Part shown: one piece after another, positions 43,458-54,515 of the stretch
Layout of the letters: every line of letters starts with the position of its first letter
How positions within the stretch are numbered: position 1 is the first letter of the stretch
Assembly: GCF_014695395.1 (NCBI RefSeq)
Contig: NZ_JACJOF010000004.1
Coordinates: 124,001 to 188,000, forward strand
Source of the DNA: Nodosilinea sp. FACHB-131
Lineage (GTDB): Bacteria > Cyanobacteriota > Cyanobacteriia > Phormidesmidales > Phormidesmidaceae
Length of the DNA: 64,000 nucleotides
Direction of reading: 5' to 3'
Notes under the pieces: model-generated
What the model was told of the DNA's origin: nothing
Database searches by the model: none
Seen by the model: only the letters and a program-made list of their open reading frames with translations
Position numbers and translations under genes: made by a program

Positions 43458-45392
43458 ATGAGCGATACCATTCTCAACGTTAAGCACCTCACCGTTCAAT
43501 TTGAGGTCGACGGCCAGCTCATTCAAGCCGTGAATGACATTTCGTTTCAGGTGCAGCGGGGGCAAACCCTGGGCATTGTGGGCGAGTCGGGGTCGGGGAA
43601 GTCGGTGACGTCGCTGGCGGTGATGGGGCTGGTGCCCAACCCACCGGGCAAGGTTGTCAACGGCGAAATTTGGTTCAATGGCGGCACGGGCGACGCCGTT
43701 GACCTGGGCGCCCTCAGCGAGACCCAGCTACAGGCCTATCGGGGTGGCCAGGTGTCGATGATTTTTCAGGAGCCGATGAGCTCGCTGAACCCGGTATATA
43801 CGGTTGGGTTTCAAATGGTGGAGGCGATTCGTCAGCACCAGAATATTTCAAAGGAAGCGGCCCGTCAGCAGGCGATCGCCCGGCTGCAGGAGGTCAAACT
43901 GCTGCCCGCCGATGCCGCCCTAGCGGCCACCATCAAAACCGAAAAGCCGCGTCACGACGACGAATCTCTCAAAGAAGAGGTCGATCGCCGTCAGCAGGCC
44001 ATTCTTGATCGCTATCCCCATGAGCTGTCCGGGGGGCAGATTCAGCGAGTGATGATTGCTATGGCGATCTCCTGCAACCCGGCTCTGCTGATTGCCGACG
44101 AACCTACCACGGCGCTGGATGTAACGGTGCAGGCAACGATTCTTGACCTGCTGCGCGAACTGCGCGATCGCCGCGGTATGTCGCTAATTTTCATCACCCA
44201 CGACCTGGGCATTATTGCCGAGATTGCCGACCAGGTGGCGGTGATGTATCAGGGCAAAATTGTTGAAGCTGGCCCAGTATGGGATATCTTTGCCCAGCCC
44301 CAGCACCCCTACACCAAGGGCTTGCTGGCCTGTCGCCCCCAGCCCAACCAGCGGCTGCGGCTGTTGCCCACGGTAGCCGACTTTATGTCTGTGGAGCTGG
44401 CGGGCACCGAGATCAACGCTGCTGCCGCCAACGGGGGCCAACCGGTGGCGGGTGCAATCCCCATCATTCGCGAGCGGGTGCTCGATGCTGAGGCCCAGGC
44501 CCGCTTTGCCCCCCTAACGGAGGAGGAGCTGACGACGCGGGCGGCATCTCTGGCGGCCAACGGTCCTCTACTGGCGGTAGAAAATCTCCAGGTGGGCTAC
44601 CCGGTGCGAGGCATCTTTGGCAAAACCCGCAGCCACGTGATGGCGGTGCAGGATGTGTCGTTTCAAATTCAGAAGGGTGAAACCTTTGGTCTAGTAGGTG
44701 AGTCGGGCTGCGGCAAAACTACCCTGGGTCGAGCGCTGCTGCGGCTGGTGCCCGCCATGGGCGGCAAGATTTGGTTTGAGGGGCGCGACGTGCTGGCGCT
44801 GGGCTCATCGCCGCTGCGGCAGCTGCGCCGGGACATGCAAATTGTGTTTCAAGACCCCTACAGCTCGCTCGACCCGCGCATGAGCATTGGGGCGGCGATC
44901 GCCGAACCGCTCAAAATCCACGGTGTGATCAAAAGCAAACGCAACCAGCAGGAGCGGGTGGCTTACCTGCTCGATCGCGTCGGTTTACCCGCCAGCGCCA
45001 TGAACCGCTATCCCCACGAGTTTTCGGGCGGGCAGCGCCAGCGGGTGTGCATTGCCCGCGCTTTGGCCCTCAATCCCAAGTTCATCATTTGCGACGAGTC
45101 GGTGTCGGCTCTGGATGTGTCGGTGCAGGCGCAGGTGCTCAACCTGCTGAAGGAGATTCAGGCGGAATTTGACCTTACCTATATCTTTATTTCCCACGAT
45201 CTGGCGGTGGTGAAGTTTATGAGCGATCGCATTATGGTGATGAACCAGGGCCGGGTCGAAGAAATTGGCCCCGCCGAGCAGGTCTATCGCCAGCCCCAGA
45301 CCCCCTACACCCAGGCCTTGATCAACGCGATACCGGTGGGCAGTTTAGATCGCATTCAGGAGTTGCAGCGCGATCGGGCCTCGGTAGCTTAG
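43458..45392 (+). CDS. Fused two-domain peptide ABC transporter ATPase (DppD-DppF type)
   Basis: Cytoplasmic ATPase with two complete nucleotide-binding domains in one chain (about 644 residues), like GsiA or YejF. N-domain: Walker A GESGSGKS, signature LSGGQIQRV, Walker [14 protein letters not shown]-domain: [29 protein letters not shown]. Oligopeptide-type linkers (HPYTKGLL and TPYTQALI) are present. The start [11 protein letters not shown] at 43458 is chosen; the frame opens 132 bp earlier without support. It should power a peptide importer with permeases elsewhere; the binding protein at 20977 is a candidate partner. Confidence 0.94.
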
Positions 45393-45417
45393 AACAATTG
45401 TTGAGGGACTTTGGCTC

Positions 45418-45822
45418 TCATCGCTTCATGAGATAGCCCTCAAGCTCTGGGTATTGAGGAAATAAGCTATCGATGCTGGCAAGCTGCCCCTCGAACAACA
45501 GCGCCGTCGCAATAATCATGCGATCAAACGGATCTTTGTGTACGGGGGATAGTCCTACGGCGCGGCAAGCTATTTCAGCAGTAAGAGGCAGCAGAGTAAT
45601 GCCTGATGGATTTAATGCTTCTTCAAACCACTGATCTACAGAGCAGGGTAATTCTAAGCGCCTTCGCTGCTCTGCGAGCGCAATTTCATAGCAAGAGACA
45701 GGCGAAACACCTACCTGGGCAGAGGTTTCGATCTGAGTTCTCCAATGGGCCGGAAACCGCTCAAATTCTTGATTGATGAACCAAAACCAAATGTGCGTAT
45801 CCAGCACAATCACTTCAGACAT
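45418..45822 (-). CDS. vapC: PIN-domain toxin, VapC type
   Basis: Probable Mg2+-dependent endoribonuclease toxin of 134 residues. The PIN acidic residues are visible: first Asp in VLDTHIWFWF, Glu in SCYEIALAEQRRRLEL, then Asp residues in HKDPFDRMIIATAL and IDSLF. It matches the VapC subfamily that cleaves RNA when unbound. It overlaps the antitoxin gene by 13 bp on the same strand. The substrate RNA is unknown. Confidence 0.9.
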   Translation of the reverse strand: MSEVIVLDTHIWFWFINQEFERFPAHWRTQIETSAQVGVSPVSCYEIALAEQRRRLELPCSVDQWFEEALNPSGITLLPLTAEIACRAVGLSPVHKDPFDRMIIATALLFEGQLASIDSLFPQYPELEGYLMKR

Positions 45823-46031
45823 TCCCAGTCATCTTCTGTGAGGACGGGGCTAACGATATCGCCCAAGGTTTTGCCCTTGCCCGCGATCGCACTGGAGGCC
45901 ACACGCTGAGTAGGGTTAGCTGTAGTGTCTTCTAGGATGGTGATGATAACTCGCGCAGAGCCAATCTGCGGCGGTTCTGAAAGCCACTTCAACTGTCCGT
46001 CTTGGTAAATGGCTTCATAGCTTCGCAGCAT
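45810..46031 (-). CDS. Antitoxin of the VapBC-type pair
   Basis: 73 residues, placed directly upstream of and overlapping (13 bp) the PIN toxin gene. The N-terminus (LRSYEAIYQDGQLKWLSEPP) resembles the small AF2212-type antitoxins, with a flexible acidic C-terminal tail (LTEDDWECLK) that would thread into VapC. It probably neutralises the toxin and represses the operon through a DNA-binding N-terminal part, as in the family. Identification rests mainly on gene arrangement. Adjacent on the other side is the divergent NACHT gene. Confidence 0.82.
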   Translation of the reverse strand: MLRSYEAIYQDGQLKWLSEPPQIGSARVIITILEDTTANPTQRVASSAIAGKGKTLGDIVSPVLTEDDWECLK

Positions 46032-46195
46032 GGCACTTGTCTTTGGAGAAGCAATGCTTCGACGCTAGCACGATTTGTCCTACCGGTTTACCTAAGTGGT
46101 AGGGCAGCGGATTAATTGTCAACCATAGTAGATGCTGCATTAGTTTTCGTTGAGGTAGGCCAAAATAAGAGGCAATCTGCCCCTGCTGCCGCCCC

Positions 46196-48463
46196 ATGAC
46201 ACCAACCCCACCTCAAGGCCCTAACGCTCCCTTGAATGAGCGAGTGGCTGAACTGTTGCTTAAAGCGCTCGCGGCTGGGGGCCTGACCGCGGGTGGGGCA
46301 ACCGCTTTTTGGCAACTCATCAAAGACGATAGCAGCATTCCTAAAGCGATCGCCTCAGCAGTGATTGGGCTGGGCATTGCCTATGGCACAACGCTGCTCA
46401 AACCCATCGATAAAGGCAATCGGCGGCGGCTAGAGCAGACAGGGCAGGCCATTGATCAGAGCATAGACCGCAGAACCGAGCAGGTCACAACTCGCCTCAG
46501 CGGATTTGAAGATTGGTACCTGCAGTGCCAGACGTGGGATTGTCAGTCGTACCGCCCTGAGGGTGTACCCCAGCAAGAGGGCATTTTCACCCCCATGCTG
46601 GAAGAAGTCTTTGTGCCCCTAGCGCTGGATCTTAGCGGCACATTACCTGGCTTTAAGGCAGCAGCAGACTCGTTCAATCCCCAAGAACTGGAGCGAGCCA
46701 CCAACCTCAACATTTGGCATTTTTTGCGTAAGGCCGAGCAAACGAAACCCTTTCGCCAGTTGGTGATACTCGCTTGGGGTGGCTATGGCAAAACCACGCT
46801 GCTCAAGCACATCGCCTACATCTACGCCACTAAACAGTACAGTCGTCACCAGGTCAAAAAGCGGATTCCGATATTGCTGGTGCTGCGCAAGTATCGCGAC
46901 CTACTAGCCAGCGAAAACGTGCCCGACCTACCGACGCTCATTACCCAACACCACATCCCCAGCTTGCCAAAAGAAGGTAGAGACATGCCCGTACCGGCTA
47001 ACTGGGCGACGGATATGCTGCGCCGGGGCGATGCGGTGATTATGCTTGACGGCTTTGACGAAGTGGCTAAAGATCAACGCCCTGCTGTAGCAAACTGGAT
47101 CAACAGTCAAATGCGCCGCTACGGCAACTCAGTTTTTATCGTCACCTCACGACCCAAAGCCTACCGCGACCAAGACGCTGCCCACCGCTTAGAGCTTTCG
47201 ACTGCTCTCTGGGTACGCGACTTTGATGTTATTCAGCGACGCGATTTTGTAACGCGCTGGTATCAGTGCCAAGAGCGCTACGCCCACGGTGGCAGAGACA
47301 CCCCCGATGTGGTCAAACTCGCCAACGAAGCTGCCCAAGACCTGCTGCACCAAATTGAAACTCGCCAGGAGCTAAAAGATTTGGCTAAAAACCCGCTGCT
47401 ACTGAATATGATTGTTACCTTTCATCGGCGGTATCCGAGGGTGCGGCTGCCCCAGCGGCGGGTAGAGCTATACAAAGAAATTTGCCAGTTGCAGTTGCGA
47501 GACCGCCCCCGTGCCCGCCAGCTCGATACGCTGCTCACCCAGTGCGAGGCCCAAGTGGCACTGCAAATGCTGGCGCTATATATGATGCAGCAGCGTTTAG
47601 AGCGTATTGCCTACCAAGATTTGAGCCAAGTACTAACCCGCTCCCTACGACAACAGGAAGAACTCATCAATGTAGAAGACTTTCTAGACCAGGTGGTGCA
47701 AATTAGCGAGTTACTGGTGCAACAAGAAGACGAATATGAGTTTGCTCACCTAAGCTTTCAAGAATACTTAGCCGCTGCCGAAATTGCCCGCACTCAACAA
47801 GAGGCTCTGCTGTATGACCGCTTTAAAGATGATTGGTGGAAACCGACTATTTTGCTCTACGCTTCTCAAGTGAACCCCGCTTGGCTGTTGCGGCACATGC
47901 TTGACCGAGGGGCTACCGATCTTGCCTATACTTGCTGGCAAGATACCACCAAAAGACTTGACCCAGCCCTTGAAGAAGCGCTTAAGGTTCTAACGCAAAT
48001 TGTGACTACGTCGCGCTACCAGCGATTAGAGAAATATTTGCAAAACGGCCAATGGAAAGAAGCAGATGACGAAACCTATCGACTGATGATTACTACAGTA
48101 GGTAAAGAGGAGGGACAGTTCTTTGAGCCTGATGAGTTATTGAACTTTCCCTGTGAGGAGCTTTTGACGATTGATCGGCTGTGGGTGCAGTACAGCCAAG
48201 GCAAGTTTGGCTTCAGTGTGCAAAAAGAGATTTATCTCTCTGAGAAAGTCGGTGGTATCGCTGATGGAATATACTATAAAGAAGCCTTTAAAGAGTTTGG
48301 AGATTGTGTGGGCTGGCGAGAAAATGCTAAGTGGACATGGCATATAAAATATGACACGTTGAGCCCTAGCGGACACCTCCCTTTGGTACATCAAAGTGCG
48401 GGGGACAAGCGAGGTAGCAGGGTAACAAGCCTCTTCTCTCGCATGCAGGCTTGTAAGCTGTAG
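46196..48463 (+). CDS. NACHT-domain STAND NTPase with C-terminal GUN4-like domain
   Basis: Probable NLR-like signalling protein of 755 residues. Residues about 20-70 hold two hydrophobic segments (KALAAGGLTAGGATAFWQL, then SAVIGLGIAYGTTLL). The NACHT module follows: Walker A WGGYGKTTLLKH at about 196, Walker B VIMLDGFDEV, sensor FIVTSRPKAY, and the helical winged part with FAHLSFQEYLAA. From about residue 614 the chain reads NGQWKEADDETYRLMITTVG, then FPCEELLTIDRLWVQYSQGK, a GUN4-like porphyrin-binding fold ending WHIKYDTLSPSGHLP. GUN4 binds Mg-protoporphyrin in chlorophyll synthesis; in NACHT fusions its role is unknown and a sensor is likely. Bacterial NACHT proteins include antiphage systems. 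Between a VapBC-type pair and a repeat array. Confidence 0.88.
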   Translation: MTPTPPQGPNAPLNERVAELLLKALAAGGLTAGGATAFWQLIKDDSSIPKAIASAVIGLGIAYGTTLLKPIDKGNRRRLEQTGQAIDQSIDRRTEQVTTRLSGFEDWYLQCQTWDCQSYRPEGVPQQEGIFTPMLEEVFVPLALDLSGTLPGFKAAADSFNPQELERATNLNIWHFLRKAEQTKPFRQLVILAWGGYGKTTLLKHIAYIYATKQYSRHQVKKRIPILLVLRKYRDLLASENVPDLPTLITQHHIPSLPKEGRDMPVPANWATDMLRRGDAVIMLDGFDEVAKDQRPAVANWINSQMRRYGNSVFIVTSRPKAYRDQDAAHRLELSTALWVRDFDVIQRRDFVTRWYQCQERYAHGGRDTPDVVKLANEAAQDLLHQIETRQELKDLAKNPLLLNMIVTFHRRYPRVRLPQRRVELYKEICQLQLRDRPRARQLDTLLTQCEAQVALQMLALYMMQQRLERIAYQDLSQVLTRSLRQQEELINVEDFLDQVVQISELLVQQEDEYEFAHLSFQEYLAAAEIARTQQEALLYDRFKDDWWKPTILLYASQVNPAWLLRHMLDRGATDLAYTCWQDTTKRLDPALEEALKVLTQIVTTSRYQRLEKYLQNGQWKEADDETYRLMITTVGKEEGQFFEPDELLNFPCEELLTIDRLWVQYSQGKFGFSVQKEIYLSEKVGGIADGIYYKEAFKEFGDCVGWRENAKWTWHIKYDTLSPSGHLPLVHQSAGDKRGSRVTSLFSRMQACKL

Positions 48464-49294
48464 CAGACAAATACCTCAGCTCGATTTAAAGATTACTTCA
48501 GACCTTTGACTCGCAAAAAACTCGTAGGGTGCATTCACGGTCAAATTTTCGTTTTGTATAAATGAAATTCCCTCTCTGACCGCAATGCACCGCTAACCTA
48601 TAGCGATCGCCCAATAACGTCAGCAGTTCATCCAACATAGCGTCACCGACAAGGCTCTTAATGAATAGCGGCAGGCACTGCCTTCTGAGCGCAAGTAGCA
48701 GAGCCACTACAAGGGCATTTCCAGGTAGAACTTGAAAACGAGTACTGCTTACGAAGAGAGGAAATCAAGTTTTGCTTGGACGTTACTTGATTGGCAAGCC
48801 CCATTCATAAGTAACGCTATGACAAAATCAAGTTTTGCTTAGGCGTTACTTAACTACGACACCCCGTGGATAAGTAACGTTATCAGAAAATCAAGTTTCC
48901 TTCGAGCGTTACTTATCTATGGCCCGTCGCAATTAAGTAACGCAGCTCAGTAATCAAGTTTTGTGCTGGGGTTACTCGATGCGCCCCCTAGTTTTGCCGA
49001 TGCTCCAGGGCACTGATCGCCCATCTACACTGCGGTACCTTGTGACGTTAATGCATGACTTCATAAGCACCGCAGCAGCTCAATTTAGGATGTCGTCGAT
49101 CGACAAACACCGTTGTTATAGAGCAATTCATCGTGTTGCAACGCTCGAACCATTAATACAGGGTTCAACAAGCTGAACCGCTTGCGGCTTTTTGAATGCA
49201 GAGCAACTGACCGTAAATTCTGGCACAACGATCGCACTATCTAGTCGTGCCCGTGGCTACCCTAGGGTAGCTTTGCACACCGAGAAAACCCGCC
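48464..49294. other. Accessory spacer with small frames and a repeat array
   Basis: Lacks a supported gene over about 830 bp. A minus-strand frame at 48498-48707 (69 residues, part LDELLTLLGDRYRLAVHCGQ) has some protein-like character, possibly a remnant or small gene. The repeat array lies at 48762-48990. At 49163-49190 short alternate hairpins (GGTTCA/TGAACC, then CCGC/GCGG before T5) may end transcripts. Confidence 0.5.
48764..48990. repeat. Array of 63-bp direct repeats, each with an inverted repeat
   Basis: ATCAAGTTTTGCTT-like units begin at 48764, 48827, 48890 and 48953, exactly 63 bp apart. Each of the first three holds an inverted repeat: CGTTACTT/AAGTAACG (48781-48788, 48809-48816), CGTTACTTA/TAAGTAACG (48844-48852, 48871-48879) and GCGTTACTTA/TAAGTAACGC (48906-48915, 48934-48943). 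Loop bases of about 18-20 differ in each unit. The fourth unit is degenerate and lacks its closing arm. Not CRISPR in form. Confidence 0.88.
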
Positions 49295-50680
49295 ATGAGA
49301 CGCGCCCTTGCCTTTGCTTTGGCCCCGCTTTGCCTAGGGCTTGCAACCACCTTGCCGTTGCCGGGGTCAAACGGCTGCTCGATGCTGGCCTGGGCCCAAG
49401 AAACCCGTACCTACGGCAGCGATGGCAGCGATGGCCGCAGTGGGCGATCGGGACGCGATGGCACCGCTGGAACTAGCCAAACTACCGTAGCCGACGGCAC
49501 CTCCGCCAGCTTTAGCCTCACCGGCAGCGATGGCGAAGACGGCGAGAATGGTGAAAACGGCTACCGTCCCCGCTGTGGTGGCCAACCCCGCAACGTCAAC
49601 TACAACCTGCGCGCCCCTGACGGCGGCGATGGCGGTGACGGCGGCAGCGGCGGCAGTGGCGGCAGCGGTGGCAATCTGACGGTTTACTATGGCGATCGCG
49701 CGGCCCTGCAACGGCTCTCGGTAGACGCTCGCGGCGGGCGCTTTGGACGTGGCGGGCGCGGCGGCAGCGGCACCATCGGCTGTCGCTGTGATGTGCGCGA
49801 TTGGGAGATTCAAACCTGCACCGGCACCCCTGGCCAGGCTGACTATCAATGCCGGGCGAACCGCTACCGCTGCTACGACGGCAGCAGCGGCAGCAACGGT
49901 TCCTTTGGCCGCGACGGCGCCCCTGGTGCTGACGGTCAGCTGTGGATTGTCAACCAGCTGGAGCCGTTGCTGAGCGAAACCCCAGCTATGTCGGTAGGGC
50001 TGCAAACCTTGGCCAGCCAACCGGTGCGTCTTTCTCGAAATCTGTGGGCTGAGAAATCGGGAGCTAACGCCCTACTGGCCCCTGGGTCGCGAGTCAACGA
50101 CACCTACCGCGAATATACCGGGCGAGTGGAAGGGGATGTCAGTCTCAGCTGGCAAGCTCCCCGGCCCTTGGGCAGCTTTGCGGGCGGCGATGTACGCACC
50201 GAGATTCAGCCCGATGGAGCGTTGACCGCCACCTTCCCCGACAGCCTCTGGGCCGACTACACTACCAGCCGCCAAGCCGACCAGCTCACCATCACCGTCA
50301 CCAATGCGGTGCGGGCCAGCGACGTTACCCGTCTGGCCTCGGGAGGGGTGCAGGGCAGCGGGGCCAACCTCAAGGCTGTGGTGCTCGATCTGGCTGGGGA
50401 GTCAGCCTACCTGACTACCCAGTTTCGCCTGACGCTGAGAACCACCGATGGCGACCCCAGGGACGATCGCCGCCTGCGCTACGTCACCGTTTACGACGAT
50501 GTGGTGCCAGCGGAACTGGTGAGCCTGGCGGGCAACCGCTTTGAGCTGGCCCTGGGTCGCCTACCCATTGACCGGGGGCCGCTGACCCGGGGCAAGTATG
50601 CCCAAATTGAAATTACGGCAGTGCGATCGCTGGGAACTAACAGCGCTGAGCAGTCGCTTTCTTGGCAGGGGCAGTTTTAG
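49295..50680 (+). CDS. Secreted glycine-rich collagen-like protein
   Basis: Exported protein of 461 residues. Signal peptide with a hydrophobic Leu/Ala core, cleavage after AWA at about residue 34 (LAWA|QE). Residues about 40-190 are Gly-Asp/Ser repeats (for example GSDGSDGRSGRSGRDGTAG and DGGDGGSGGSGGSGG) of irregular collagen-like or glycine-loop type. Six or more Cys lie in the segment at about 95-200 (RCGGQ, GCRCDVRD, CTGTPGQ, YQCRANRYRC) and probably form disulfides. A second half of about 230 residues is beta-rich (GDVSLSWQAPRPL). Suggests a cell-surface or sheath protein; no cell-wall anchor is seen. Role unknown. Confidence 0.8.
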   Translation: MRRALAFALAPLCLGLATTLPLPGSNGCSMLAWAQETRTYGSDGSDGRSGRSGRDGTAGTSQTTVADGTSASFSLTGSDGEDGENGENGYRPRCGGQPRNVNYNLRAPDGGDGGDGGSGGSGGSGGNLTVYYGDRAALQRLSVDARGGRFGRGGRGGSGTIGCRCDVRDWEIQTCTGTPGQADYQCRANRYRCYDGSSGSNGSFGRDGAPGADGQLWIVNQLEPLLSETPAMSVGLQTLASQPVRLSRNLWAEKSGANALLAPGSRVNDTYREYTGRVEGDVSLSWQAPRPLGSFAGGDVRTEIQPDGALTATFPDSLWADYTTSRQADQLTITVTNAVRASDVTRLASGGVQGSGANLKAVVLDLAGESAYLTTQFRLTLRTTDGDPRDDRRLRYVTVYDDVVPAELVSLAGNRFELALGRLPIDRGPLTRGKYAQIEITAVRSLGTNSAEQSLSWQGQF

Positions 50681-53122: not shown

Positions 53123-54515
53123 AATGGTGACAACTTAAGCATAGGCTTCAGCAGTCAAGGTAGTCGGTGCGGGGTCGAAGGTAAGTGTAGGGGGCTTTTT
53201 ACGGCGGGCTTTGACCGTACCAAGGTCAGCATTGGCAGGGTCAGCGAAGTAGGTAATGAGGTCATGGGCTTGCCCCTTCGAGTGAGCAACGGAGAAGTGA
53301 TAGAGACCGCGAAAGAGCATTTCTAGAGACACGCGCTCAACCGGAAGACTTAAGGCATTGGCCAGGTCATCGGCTAAATCGACCAAGACGAGGTAGATGA
53401 TCCAGGTTGCCCAAACCTGTAAGCGAATGCCATTGGGTGAGCCGGTCCAGAGGTAGCTGAGGCCAAGCAGGCGTTTGACCAGGTTGAAGGACTCTTCGAT
53501 GCGCCATCGTCGTTGATAAAGATCCGCGACGACTCCTGGCGGCAAGACGGTGGGGTCAAGCACCGAGGTGAGATAGGTGTGCCACTGCTGGCCTCGTCGG
53601 ACTTCCACCAAGCGCAGCGTCAGGATGGGATTACCCTGATAGCCCTTGCCTAAGCGGACTTGGGAATCGCGATGCCAGGGGCTCTCGCTAAGGGGCTTGA
53701 GCACCTCAATTGGACCATTCGCCCGCACCCGCGTAATGAAGCCTGCCCCTTGGTTGATGAGAAACTCAAAAAACCGAAAGTCCCAAAACCCACGGTCTAG
53801 AAGCATCAACGTTTTGGGGCCAATGGCTTGATGCAATCGGGGCATAAACGTTGTGTCATGGGTGTAGGGATTGGCCTCTATCCACACGGCGACAGGCGTC
53901 TGTCGCACTAAATCCAGAATGACCATCATCTTGCCGCCTAGCTCTCCAACCGGGGTGTCTTCTAGACTCTTGAGCTTGCGAAACAGCGCTTCTAGCGTCG
54001 AGCCGTCGGCAATCCAGACCTGCTCAAAGGACCGCAGCGCCACCCTCACACTCTCAGGGAGGGGGCGCTGAACTCGCTCGCCCCAGCGGTGCTGAATCAG
54101 CGGCACTACGTCCTTGAAGACCTGCTCAAACAGTGTGCTAGGAAACTCTAGCAGTCGGGTCGAGAGCGCTTGTTGACTCACGGAAGTTGCTTTGCACCAC
54201 AGCAGGTCTTCGCGGTTTAACACCCGACACAACTCATGCACCGACGGCACCTGCCGCCACAGAAGCGTCAGAATAGCGGCCAGCATCAACGGCAAGGTCA
54301 AGATTCGCGCCCGCAGTCCCAGTTGTCGATACAAACCGCTTTGCGCGTACACCGTTGACGTTAGTAGGTCGTTCAGCCGAGCTTTGACTTCTTCGTTCTC
54401 TACATAAGGTTGATTGCGGGGACGAACGTGATCTCGATGGCTGGAACTCCGAGTCATGTCACTCTCTCCAAAAGGCACTTGACGGCTAGCCTAGCGCCTT
54501 AAGTTGTCACCGTTG
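53122..54515 (-). mobile_element. Complete IS4-family insertion sequence
   Basis: About 1.39 kb with terminal inverted repeats of 18 bp and one mismatch. The left end CAATGGTGACAACTTAAG (53122-53139) matches the right end CTTAAGTTGTCACCGTTG (54498-54515). The TIR of at least 14 bp (GGTGACAACTTAAG) is perfect. One transposase gene fills it, stopping within the left end. No clear target duplication is seen on either side. It separates copy 4 of the palindromic repeat from the zinc-binding gene. Confidence 0.87.
53135..54457 (-). CDS. IS4-family DDE transposase
   Basis: Transposase of about 440 residues, intact. DDE catalytic elements are visible: Asp in VWIADGSTLEALF, Asp in MLLDRGFWDFRFF, and the IS4 signature Y-x2-R-x3-E-x6-K in YQRRWRIEESFNLVK, placing it in IS4 with confidence. 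ATG at 54457 (MTRSSSHRD) is used; a GTG at 54478 is possible. The stop codon TAA lies within the left TIR. No frameshift or truncation suggests recent insertion or ongoing activity. Confidence 0.93.
   Translation of the reverse strand: MTRSSSHRDHVRPRNQPYVENEEVKARLNDLLTSTVYAQSGLYRQLGLRARILTLPLMLAAILTLLWRQVPSVHELCRVLNREDLLWCKATSVSQQALSTRLLEFPSTLFEQVFKDVVPLIQHRWGERVQRPLPESVRVALRSFEQVWIADGSTLEALFRKLKSLEDTPVGELGGKMMVILDLVRQTPVAVWIEANPYTHDTTFMPRLHQAIGPKTLMLLDRGFWDFRFFEFLINQGAGFITRVRANGPIEVLKPLSESPWHRDSQVRLGKGYQGNPILTLRLVEVRRGQQWHTYLTSVLDPTVLPPGVVADLYQRRWRIEESFNLVKRLLGLSYLWTGSPNGIRLQVWATWIIYLVLVDLADDLANALSLPVERVSLEMLFRGLYHFSVAHSKGQAHDLITYFADPANADLGTVKARRKKPPTLTFDPAPTTLTAEAYA

Follow-up and report, generated by a model that had tools for sequence, protein, structure and literature searches.

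A GUN4-ended NACHT protein of Nodosilinea with a hypervariable pocket loop, and the Y1 transposase gene that faces such genes in many of its relatives

Bacterial STAND receptors are related to the NLRs of animals and plants, and those with a NACHT ATPase have in common this domain, an NLR-like fold, an exchangeable N-terminus and a C-terminal sensor position. Here we describe a NACHT-GUN4 gene of Nodosilinea sp. FACHB-131, lying in a 64,000-nucleotide stretch of contig NZ_JACJOF010000004.1 that we call the window throughout (Table 1), whose family differs from the described systems in that GUN4 takes the sensor position and has a pocket loop that is hypervariable. Similar to the GUN4 cofactor of Mg-chelatase (PDB ID 1Y6I, 4XKB and 1Z3X) the domain has the same fold, at 26-32% identity in the fold matches, although the window family as a rule does not have the canonical Phe196 and Arg214 and carries a variable tract in place of the loop after the GHLP motif. 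Fusions of GUN4 with kinases, caspases, trypsin and TIR domains are known and are interpreted in the available excerpt of PMC7159879 as sensors of the photosynthetic state, and GUN4 has been noted in TRADD-N and other conflict proteins (PMC8195603, in excerpt) and together with caspases (PMC2853523, likewise in part), while PMC10156173 holds nothing on fusions or conserved residues. Cyanobacterial diversity-generating retroelements (DGRs) also give signalling proteins a hypervariable C-terminal region, going by the accessible part of PMC7517822; in contrast, no template repeat was found for the tract described here, its length and frame are free, and in relatives it is linked to a Y1 transposase gene. 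The linked Y1 protein shares with the TnpAREP/RAYT proteins of Quentin et al. 2018 (PMC6006769, in the portion available) the HUH motif NH[IV]H, the RYIHxNP motif and a C-terminal tail, and the motifs listed there suggest that it is nearest to subclass 2.1; it differs from them in staying, in three proteins scanned, below the REP_Tyr_transpos cut-off and in being convergent to hypervariable genes.

We found that the significant part of the locus is its last 90 coding bases together with the DNA beyond them. Compared with its four closest orthologues, the window gene has identities of 0.80-0.92 in the N-terminal part, 0.81-0.84 in NACHT and 0.74-0.79 in the GUN4 core, with 0.22-0.47 in the tract directly after the GHLP codons and 0.45-0.79 in the proximal part of the conserved DNA element that follows. 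In the aligned C-termini a constant GHLP gives way to an unlike stretch and then to one of the endings SLFSRxETCKL, SSLAxRLVxCx or SLLSHRDL. A survey of 226 loci gave 115 distinct ends after 29 duplicates had been dropped. Another 85 loci yielded no end that could be used, because the element was not found at up to 5 mismatches, because a GUN4 or GHLP motif was missing or because the sequence was too short; the five plasmid GUN4 regions entered, from Tolypothrix/Fremyella and Stanieria, gave none either. An earlier survey of 104 ends gave the same picture. Among the 207 pairs with at least 12% of their 8-mers in common, to which the comparison was limited, 12 have GUN4 bodies of at least 90% DNA identity, several of them sharing a member, and in 11 of these 12 the tract lies within 0.03 of the shuffled level. 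Tracts 80% identical were found in none of the 30 pairs with 85-90% body identity and in none of the 57 pairs at 80-85%, and the identity of the element is 0.92-0.93 in the two top bands of body identity. In fact two genes adjacent on one contig (L171 and L172) are 95% identical in the body and have unrelated tracts.

Tract length ranges from 14 to 192 nt with a median of 55 and falls into all three classes modulo 3 (34, 41 and 40 of the 115 ends). Its base composition (G 0.39, T 0.30, A 0.18 and C 0.13, compared with A 0.31, C 0.18, G 0.27 and T 0.24 in the body) is such that G and T make up at least 0.8 of the bases in 37/115 tracts and in 0/115 body windows, and since few A means few stop codons in any frame, this would fit an insert that is free in length. 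The left flank is duplicated in four tracts (control 12-mer, none), and no loop in the GUN4 domain model has lower confidence than the tract, which lies between GHLP and a C-terminal helix. At the level of DNA sequence, we observe that the flanks are constant while the tract between them differs as a whole block, and that tract length does not follow the reading frame. A dispensable C-terminus that drifts, with the 3' element just a regulatory or termination signal, would agree with an element that extends into non-coding DNA, but identity at the shuffled level between genes with 90-100% identical bodies is not expected from drift, and the strong G/T bias and the Y1 linkage described below would stay unexplained; we regard this explanation as very unlikely.

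It is more improbable still, indeed barely credible, that a DGR with its reverse transcriptase and template repeat makes the tract. The sole RVT_1 match of the genome (L162, G000:C38:4309-4950) does look like a DGR, lying between two ORFs (open reading frames) which we take to be FGS-like. Moreover, the excerpt of PMC7517822 available mentions GUN4-like domains in DGR variable proteins. However, no second copy of tract or element was found elsewhere in the window genome, and a DGR origin was rejected for want of a template-repeat copy there; nor does it suit a tract that varies freely in length and occurs in all three frames. Three loci (L181, L082 and L062) have unusually long tracts that resemble pieces of other proteins. 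Copying of long tracts from elsewhere in the same genome was rejected on two cases, as the L181 and L082 tracts, searched in their own genomes, returned no second copy: apart from the self-match, the hits were all 17-21 nt long. By eye, L145, L150, L153 and L158 carry additional odd insertions in other GUN4 loops.

The three C-terminal endings proved to come from a single DNA sequence, TCTTCTCTCGC...AGACTTGTAAACTGTAGCA, read in each of its three frames. Endings A, B and C occur 38, 38 and 34 times among the 115 ends, with 5 others, and the element is as alike within frame classes (0.752) as between them (0.750), which indicates that its conservation is independent of frame and points to DNA or RNA as what is conserved. 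It brings a stop codon in each frame and continues into non-coding DNA. A DNA pattern made of the element only (at most 3 mismatches) was found in 107/388 genomes, with a single match in one genome for the reversed control, and 27 of 30 loci fetched by it are recognisable GUN4 gene ends, the other three being two contig-edge pieces (L134 and L159) and L160, which has no recognisable GUN4 motif. In the window genome there are seven GUN4 matches over cut-off, and among them the element, at the same tolerance, occurs at the NACHT-GUN4 gene only. Further downstream the motif TACCTGGCAC is present in 49/103 GUN4 loci, mostly at +106 to +108 of the element (reversed control 0). The alignment of the element (A2) holds 51 of 84 listed loci, 18 having been left out by hand and others beforehand for length. 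An Rfam identity for region 45000-50000 was rejected, its two weak matches being below the gathering score and outside the element. Copies of the element also stand at ends with little or no recognisable GUN4 gene (L191, L194 and L180), and in L191 the left boundary is repeated.

Clustering of the neighbours at 80 named loci showed that 15 of these have, downstream and in convergent orientation, a gene for a Y1 transposase or a piece of one. By profile search, the 96 distinct element loci that have 700 nt or more of downstream sequence include 30 with a Y1 gene or fragment (31/97 before removal of one locus occurring twice, as L083 and L133), which is always convergent and has its near end 81-383 nt past the element, apart from an outlier at 1118 nt (L087) that is a weak match to another RAYT-type gene. 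Many of these matches are fragments. The three Y1 proteins scanned score 65-68 bits for Y1_Tnp (PF01797) and 62-72 bits for the NCBIfam model REP_Tyr_transpos (cut-off 80), above the IS200 model, and N59, H60, H62 and Y122, which make up the HUH motif and a catalytic-type Tyr, are invariant in 10 Y1 proteins. Approached from the Y1 side the linkage is seen again: the subfamily alone was found in 74/388 genomes at E 1e-40, with six candidates scored per genome, and when Y1 alone was used to fetch loci, a convergent GUN4 gene stood at 29 of the 30 best, the remaining one being cut by the contig end. Element and Y1 occur together in 47 genomes, the element only in 60, Y1 only in 27 and neither in 254. 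With one mismatch allowed, TACCTGGCAC is found no further than 320 nt from the Y1 stop in 23/29 cases at L213-L242 and 13/13 at L243-L251 (reversed control 0/53). In G196, of the same genus as the window genome, an intact Y1 gene faces the NACHT-GUN4 gene, the two lying on one contig at 216299-218491 and 215373-216128.

The same Y1 subfamily faces variable genes that are unrelated to GUN4. Ten of the 27 genomes with Y1 only belong to family f2, which by gene content is probably marine Synechococcus-like, and we hand-picked loci L243-L262 from the Y1 list as lying outside known GUN4 places or in this family. The 13 full Y1 genes inspected in L243-L251 all face genes that keep a constant body but differ at the end: seven genes that we label outer-membrane-like, which is a guess (two of the proteins were scanned and gave no family over cut-off), four Nif11-leader precursors (TIGR03798 over cut-off in the three scanned, the fourth assigned by reading its sequence) and two copies of a gene whose variable end follows LFSQGGKM. 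Nine outer-membrane-like genes, two of them not matched to a Y1, were compared; in 10 pairs with bodies 0.90-1.00 identical the tails lie within 0.06 of the shuffled level, and in 3 of these pairs the DNA 100-250 nt past the stop is 0.95-0.99 identical. Tails of three Nif11 pairs (bodies 0.89-1.00) are within 0.02 of shuffled. A further 11 Y1 loci (L252-L262) include six that face GUN4 genes, three that face cyanobactin precursors (L257, L259 and L261), and two with no recognised partner. The precursors score 69-83 bits for TIGR04446 (cut-off 35), and their cores are unlike one another ahead of a PFAGDDAE that stays constant. L243-L251 contain a multi-copy gene family with RDVRVHD followed by a variable tail, many copies of which have a convergent Y1. 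An association of TnpAREP with lanthipeptide genes in marine picocyanobacteria has reportedly been described in a preprint by Laurenceau et al. (bioRxiv 10.1101/2020.03.09.984088), going by its title. Compared by title only, that work and ours have in common a TnpAREP-like gene facing Nif11-leader precursors, and the present set additionally has GUN4 receptors, cyanobactins, outer-membrane-like partners, a frame-free element and the shared TACCTGGCAC. In the literature searched, preprints and most subscription papers excepted and several sources available in part, we found no report of hypervariable GUN4 tails, of Y1-linked receptors of this kind or of the transposase link itself, whereas the TnpAREP-lanthipeptide association already stands in that title.

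These partners bear on the possibility that a selfish Y1 of IS200/RAYT type targets 3' ends, with the tract as the scar of repeated entry and exit, no adaptive diversification, and a three-frame element that evolved to limit damage. The family membership and bit scores of the Y1 proteins given above, the many fragments, and an orientation and distance that are fixed like an element end all speak for it; however, the partners are non-random (pocket loops, lanthipeptide and cyanobactin cores, outer-membrane-like proteins) and variety would be useful at each of these sites, the host gene body remains intact, and outside family f2 there are at most three matches per genome at E 1e-40 among the six candidates scored. 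We therefore hold this explanation to be unlikely, if still a real contender.

The reading we incline to, with somewhat better than even confidence, is that these are receptors diversified by a transposase-linked process, that is, an NLR-like GUN4 receptor with a varied loop whose tract is renewed by Y1. Such a receptor would consist of an N-terminal helical effector, a NACHT ATPase switch, a helical relay and the C-terminal GUN4 as recognition module, and would be one of a group of cyanobacterial signalling proteins that end in GUN4 (NACHT, TIR-NACHT, TIR, caspase and protein kinase). The Y1 nuclease, presumably the cause of the change, would cut single-stranded DNA at or near the element, with TACCTGGCAC as a candidate site, and error-prone refilling after the cut would renew the tract. 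The varied loop may then let GUN4 receptors track changing ligands, for example molecules of phage or rivals, so that variety of receptors would be the gain; ligand binding might open the NACHT switch, leading to oligomers whose N-terminal part would take effect, possibly at the membrane in the window protein and as a TIR enzyme in relatives like L106. As to whether cyanobacteria have a general diversity generator in a domesticated HUH transposase of RAYT/TnpAREP-like type, with block-wise and frame-blind renewal of terminal tracts in unrelated genes, we see the chances as evenly balanced.

Several observations weigh against this reading. One pair with 94% body identity (L146/L148) has identical tracts, and the genome collections hold one genome per species, which places near-identical strains outside the comparison. 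At the window locus the distal part of the element with TACCTGGCAC was not found, the next 100 nt of DNA past the element are just 34-45% identical to the four closest orthologues, and no Y1 of this subfamily was found in the window or, at E 1e-40, in the window genome. Elsewhere there is no Y1 at 66/96 distinct element loci; TACCTGGCAC is present in just the 49/103 GUN4 loci counted above and, within 320 nt of the Y1 stop, in 1/11 of L252-L262; and in G196 (L011), the closest relative with an intact Y1, the pattern did not recognise the element. RNAalifold detected no conserved RNA structure in the 51 element sequences, and 7 of the 10 outer-membrane-like pairs are 0.53-0.59 identical past the stop. 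Finally, the Y1 profile was built from longer genes at some of the same loci on which it was then run, and the odds ratio of 7.4 for the co-occurrence of element and Y1 ignores kinship among the 388 genomes. Where Y1 is absent from element loci it may act in trans, may have been lost, or may be unrelated to the variation, and because neither Y1 nor the distal motif was found there, the window copy is probably a fixed allele at present.

At the protein level the ORF list and Pfam agree with what an earlier note on this DNA had claimed from the letters, namely a 755-aa protein with a NACHT domain and both Walker motifs. Pfam scores NACHT at 45.5 bits (cut-off 26.7); Walker A (WGGYGKTT) and Walker B (LDGFDEV) are both found, and G195, G196, G198, K199, T200 and T201 of the former and D285, G286, D288 and E289 of the latter are invariant in 22/22 aligned sequences, the window protein included. 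The GUN4-type C-terminus claimed there was recovered at 119.3 bits (cut-off 29.2), and a model of residues 585-755 built on 40 sequences reaches a predicted local distance difference test (pLDDT) score of 90.2, with 14/14 PDB fold matches below E 0.001 being GUN4 chains. The best PDB fold matches of the full-length AlphaFold2 model (22 sequences, mean pLDDT 70, with residues 1-91 mostly and 714-755 below 50) are NOD2, NLRC4 and NLRP3, NOD2 giving the best Foldseek E of 7.1e-12. Domain order and predicted structure thus support the view, as also proposed earlier, that the protein is an NLR-like switch with GUN4 in the usual sensor position. The N-terminal segments, described as membrane-like, are indeed Gly-rich helices, although the top 19-residue Kyte-Doolittle mean of 1.46 backs a membrane location weakly and model confidence is low there.

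The window gene is more than an ordinary sensor fusion. In the class, 327/388 genomes match the protein at E 1e-10, many of them NACHT-only, in a search that scored at most two candidates per genome. Of the 80 named loci kept, 61 have a single ORF whose match to the query starts no later than residue 115 and reaches at least residue 700. N-termini of the family differ, showing a Gly-rich hairpin as in the window, other hydrophobic starts, or TIR, as in L106, a TIR_2-NACHT-GUN4 protein (TIR_2 65 bits) that also matches ThsB (139 bits). In ten proteins hand-picked from the 30 loci fetched by the element pattern, Pfam finds GUN4 over cut-off in 10/10, preceded by a protein kinase in seven, a caspase in one (L138), TIR in one (L153) and no further family in one. 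The tract therefore goes with the GUN4 end and is shared by signalling proteins of several kinds. At L029 and L055 another GUN4 gene, whose tail is again unlike, lies upstream of the NACHT-GUN4 gene.

What the domain might sense was also considered. It has been suggested, including by Kaur et al. 2020 for GUN4 fusions, that GUN4 senses porphyrins or bilins and reports the photosynthetic state to the STAND switch, and both the GUN4 fold confirmed in the domain model and the interpretation of kinase, caspase, trypsin and TIR fusions in PMC7159879, as excerpted, favour such a tetrapyrrole sensor. Phe196 and Arg214 (Synechocystis numbering) contribute to porphyrin binding according to the accessible portion of PMC8967248. 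By alignment, canonical GUN4 (1Y6I) reads GHLP-LLNQLRGVR, with Asn211, Arg214 and Arg217 directly after GHLP and Phe196 twelve residues ahead of the GHLP Pro. In the hypervariable family the Arg214 stretch is replaced by the tract; just 7/115 ends keep the Phe and 9/115 the Arg, and the window protein has Ile and Ala at these positions. A conserved metabolite would moreover leave unlike pocket loops between 90%-identical genes unexplained. The residue counts weaken the porphyrin reading, and the detection of porphyrin put forward for the window protein is not supported and appears unlikely; for the tetrapyrrole sensor in general we see little likelihood.

The toxin-antitoxin pair reported beside the gene exists, as a PIN toxin gene and a small partner, both divergent from it, but a functional link is not supported, the PIN gene having a homologue in 2/80 named homologous loci (88% and 34% identity) and its partner in 1/80, and the pair was rejected as a linked component. 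Neither gene has a PADLOC match. The PADLOC scan covered window genes and individual proteins. Of seven neighbours in the window, five had no match and another matched at E 0.0098; the seventh, an ABC-transporter ATPase, cross-matched models for ATPases, mads_3 scoring best at 191 bits. The window protein itself matches PD-T4-6 (model PDLC04062, 132 bits) on its GUN4 part. This model spans the kinase-GUN4 protein L206 from end to end, whereas Pfam finds no protein kinase domain in the window protein; the identity was therefore rejected, and since what matches is just the GUN4 portion of a model for kinase-GUN4 proteins, the hit is no evidence for defence. In the phage collection tblastn found no GUN4 copy at E 0.01, and 0/81 matching plasmid records cover 80% of the NACHT-GUN4 query. 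A weak lead towards phage may come from a phage-resistant cyanobacterial substrain in which, in the excerpt of PMC10811720 available, a gene with GUN4 and kinase domains is among the mutated genes, other genes being mutated too. Downstream of the NACHT-GUN4 gene, where the Y1 gene stands in some relatives, 48759-48977 holds four 30-nt units at 63-nt spacing with inverted arms (GTTACTT...AAGTAACG). Further along are a gene for a collagen-like Gly-rich protein without a Pfam family (49295-50680) and a DDE transposase gene (53135-54478, minus strand).

Table 1. Features of the NACHT-GUN4 locus, in window positions
Feature	Position	Strand	Remarks
NACHT-GUN4 STAND protein gene	46196..48463	+	755 aa; stop codon 48461-48463
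N-terminal helical Gly-rich part (residues 1-105)	46196..46510	+	differs in some relatives; putative effector
NACHT NTPase domain (residues 196-356)	46781..47263	+	Pfam; conserved motifs
GUN4 domain (residues 605-738)	48008..48409	+	Pfam; domain model; fold matches
GHLP codons	48371..48382	+	constant left boundary of the tract; sequence comparison
Hypervariable tract, 47 nt	48383..48429	+	pocket loop; 22-47% identity to four closest orthologues
Conserved DNA element	48430..48505	+	proximal part kept, TCTTCTCTCGC...CTTGTAAGCTGTAGCA, through stop codon; end coordinate approximate
PIN-domain toxin gene	45418..45822	-	neighbour, outside the system; Pfam 37.9 bits
Small putative antitoxin gene	45810..46031	-	neighbour, outside the system; no Pfam family over cut-off

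We know of no established way, retroelements aside, in which the recognition loops of STAND proteins are varied. If the reading we favour is true, bacterial NLR-like receptors would acquire a variable loop similar to that of antigen receptors without the use of a reverse transcriptase. Should Y1 renew the tract, this would give RAYT proteins a job open to testing; the part of PMC6006769 available states that their function has not been formally elucidated. And if the generator is a general one, its targets would be GUN4 receptors (NACHT, TIR, caspase and kinase), lanthipeptide and cyanobactin cores and an outer-membrane-like protein, so that hypervariable lanthipeptides, cyanobactins and immune-like receptors would be tied to one mechanism.

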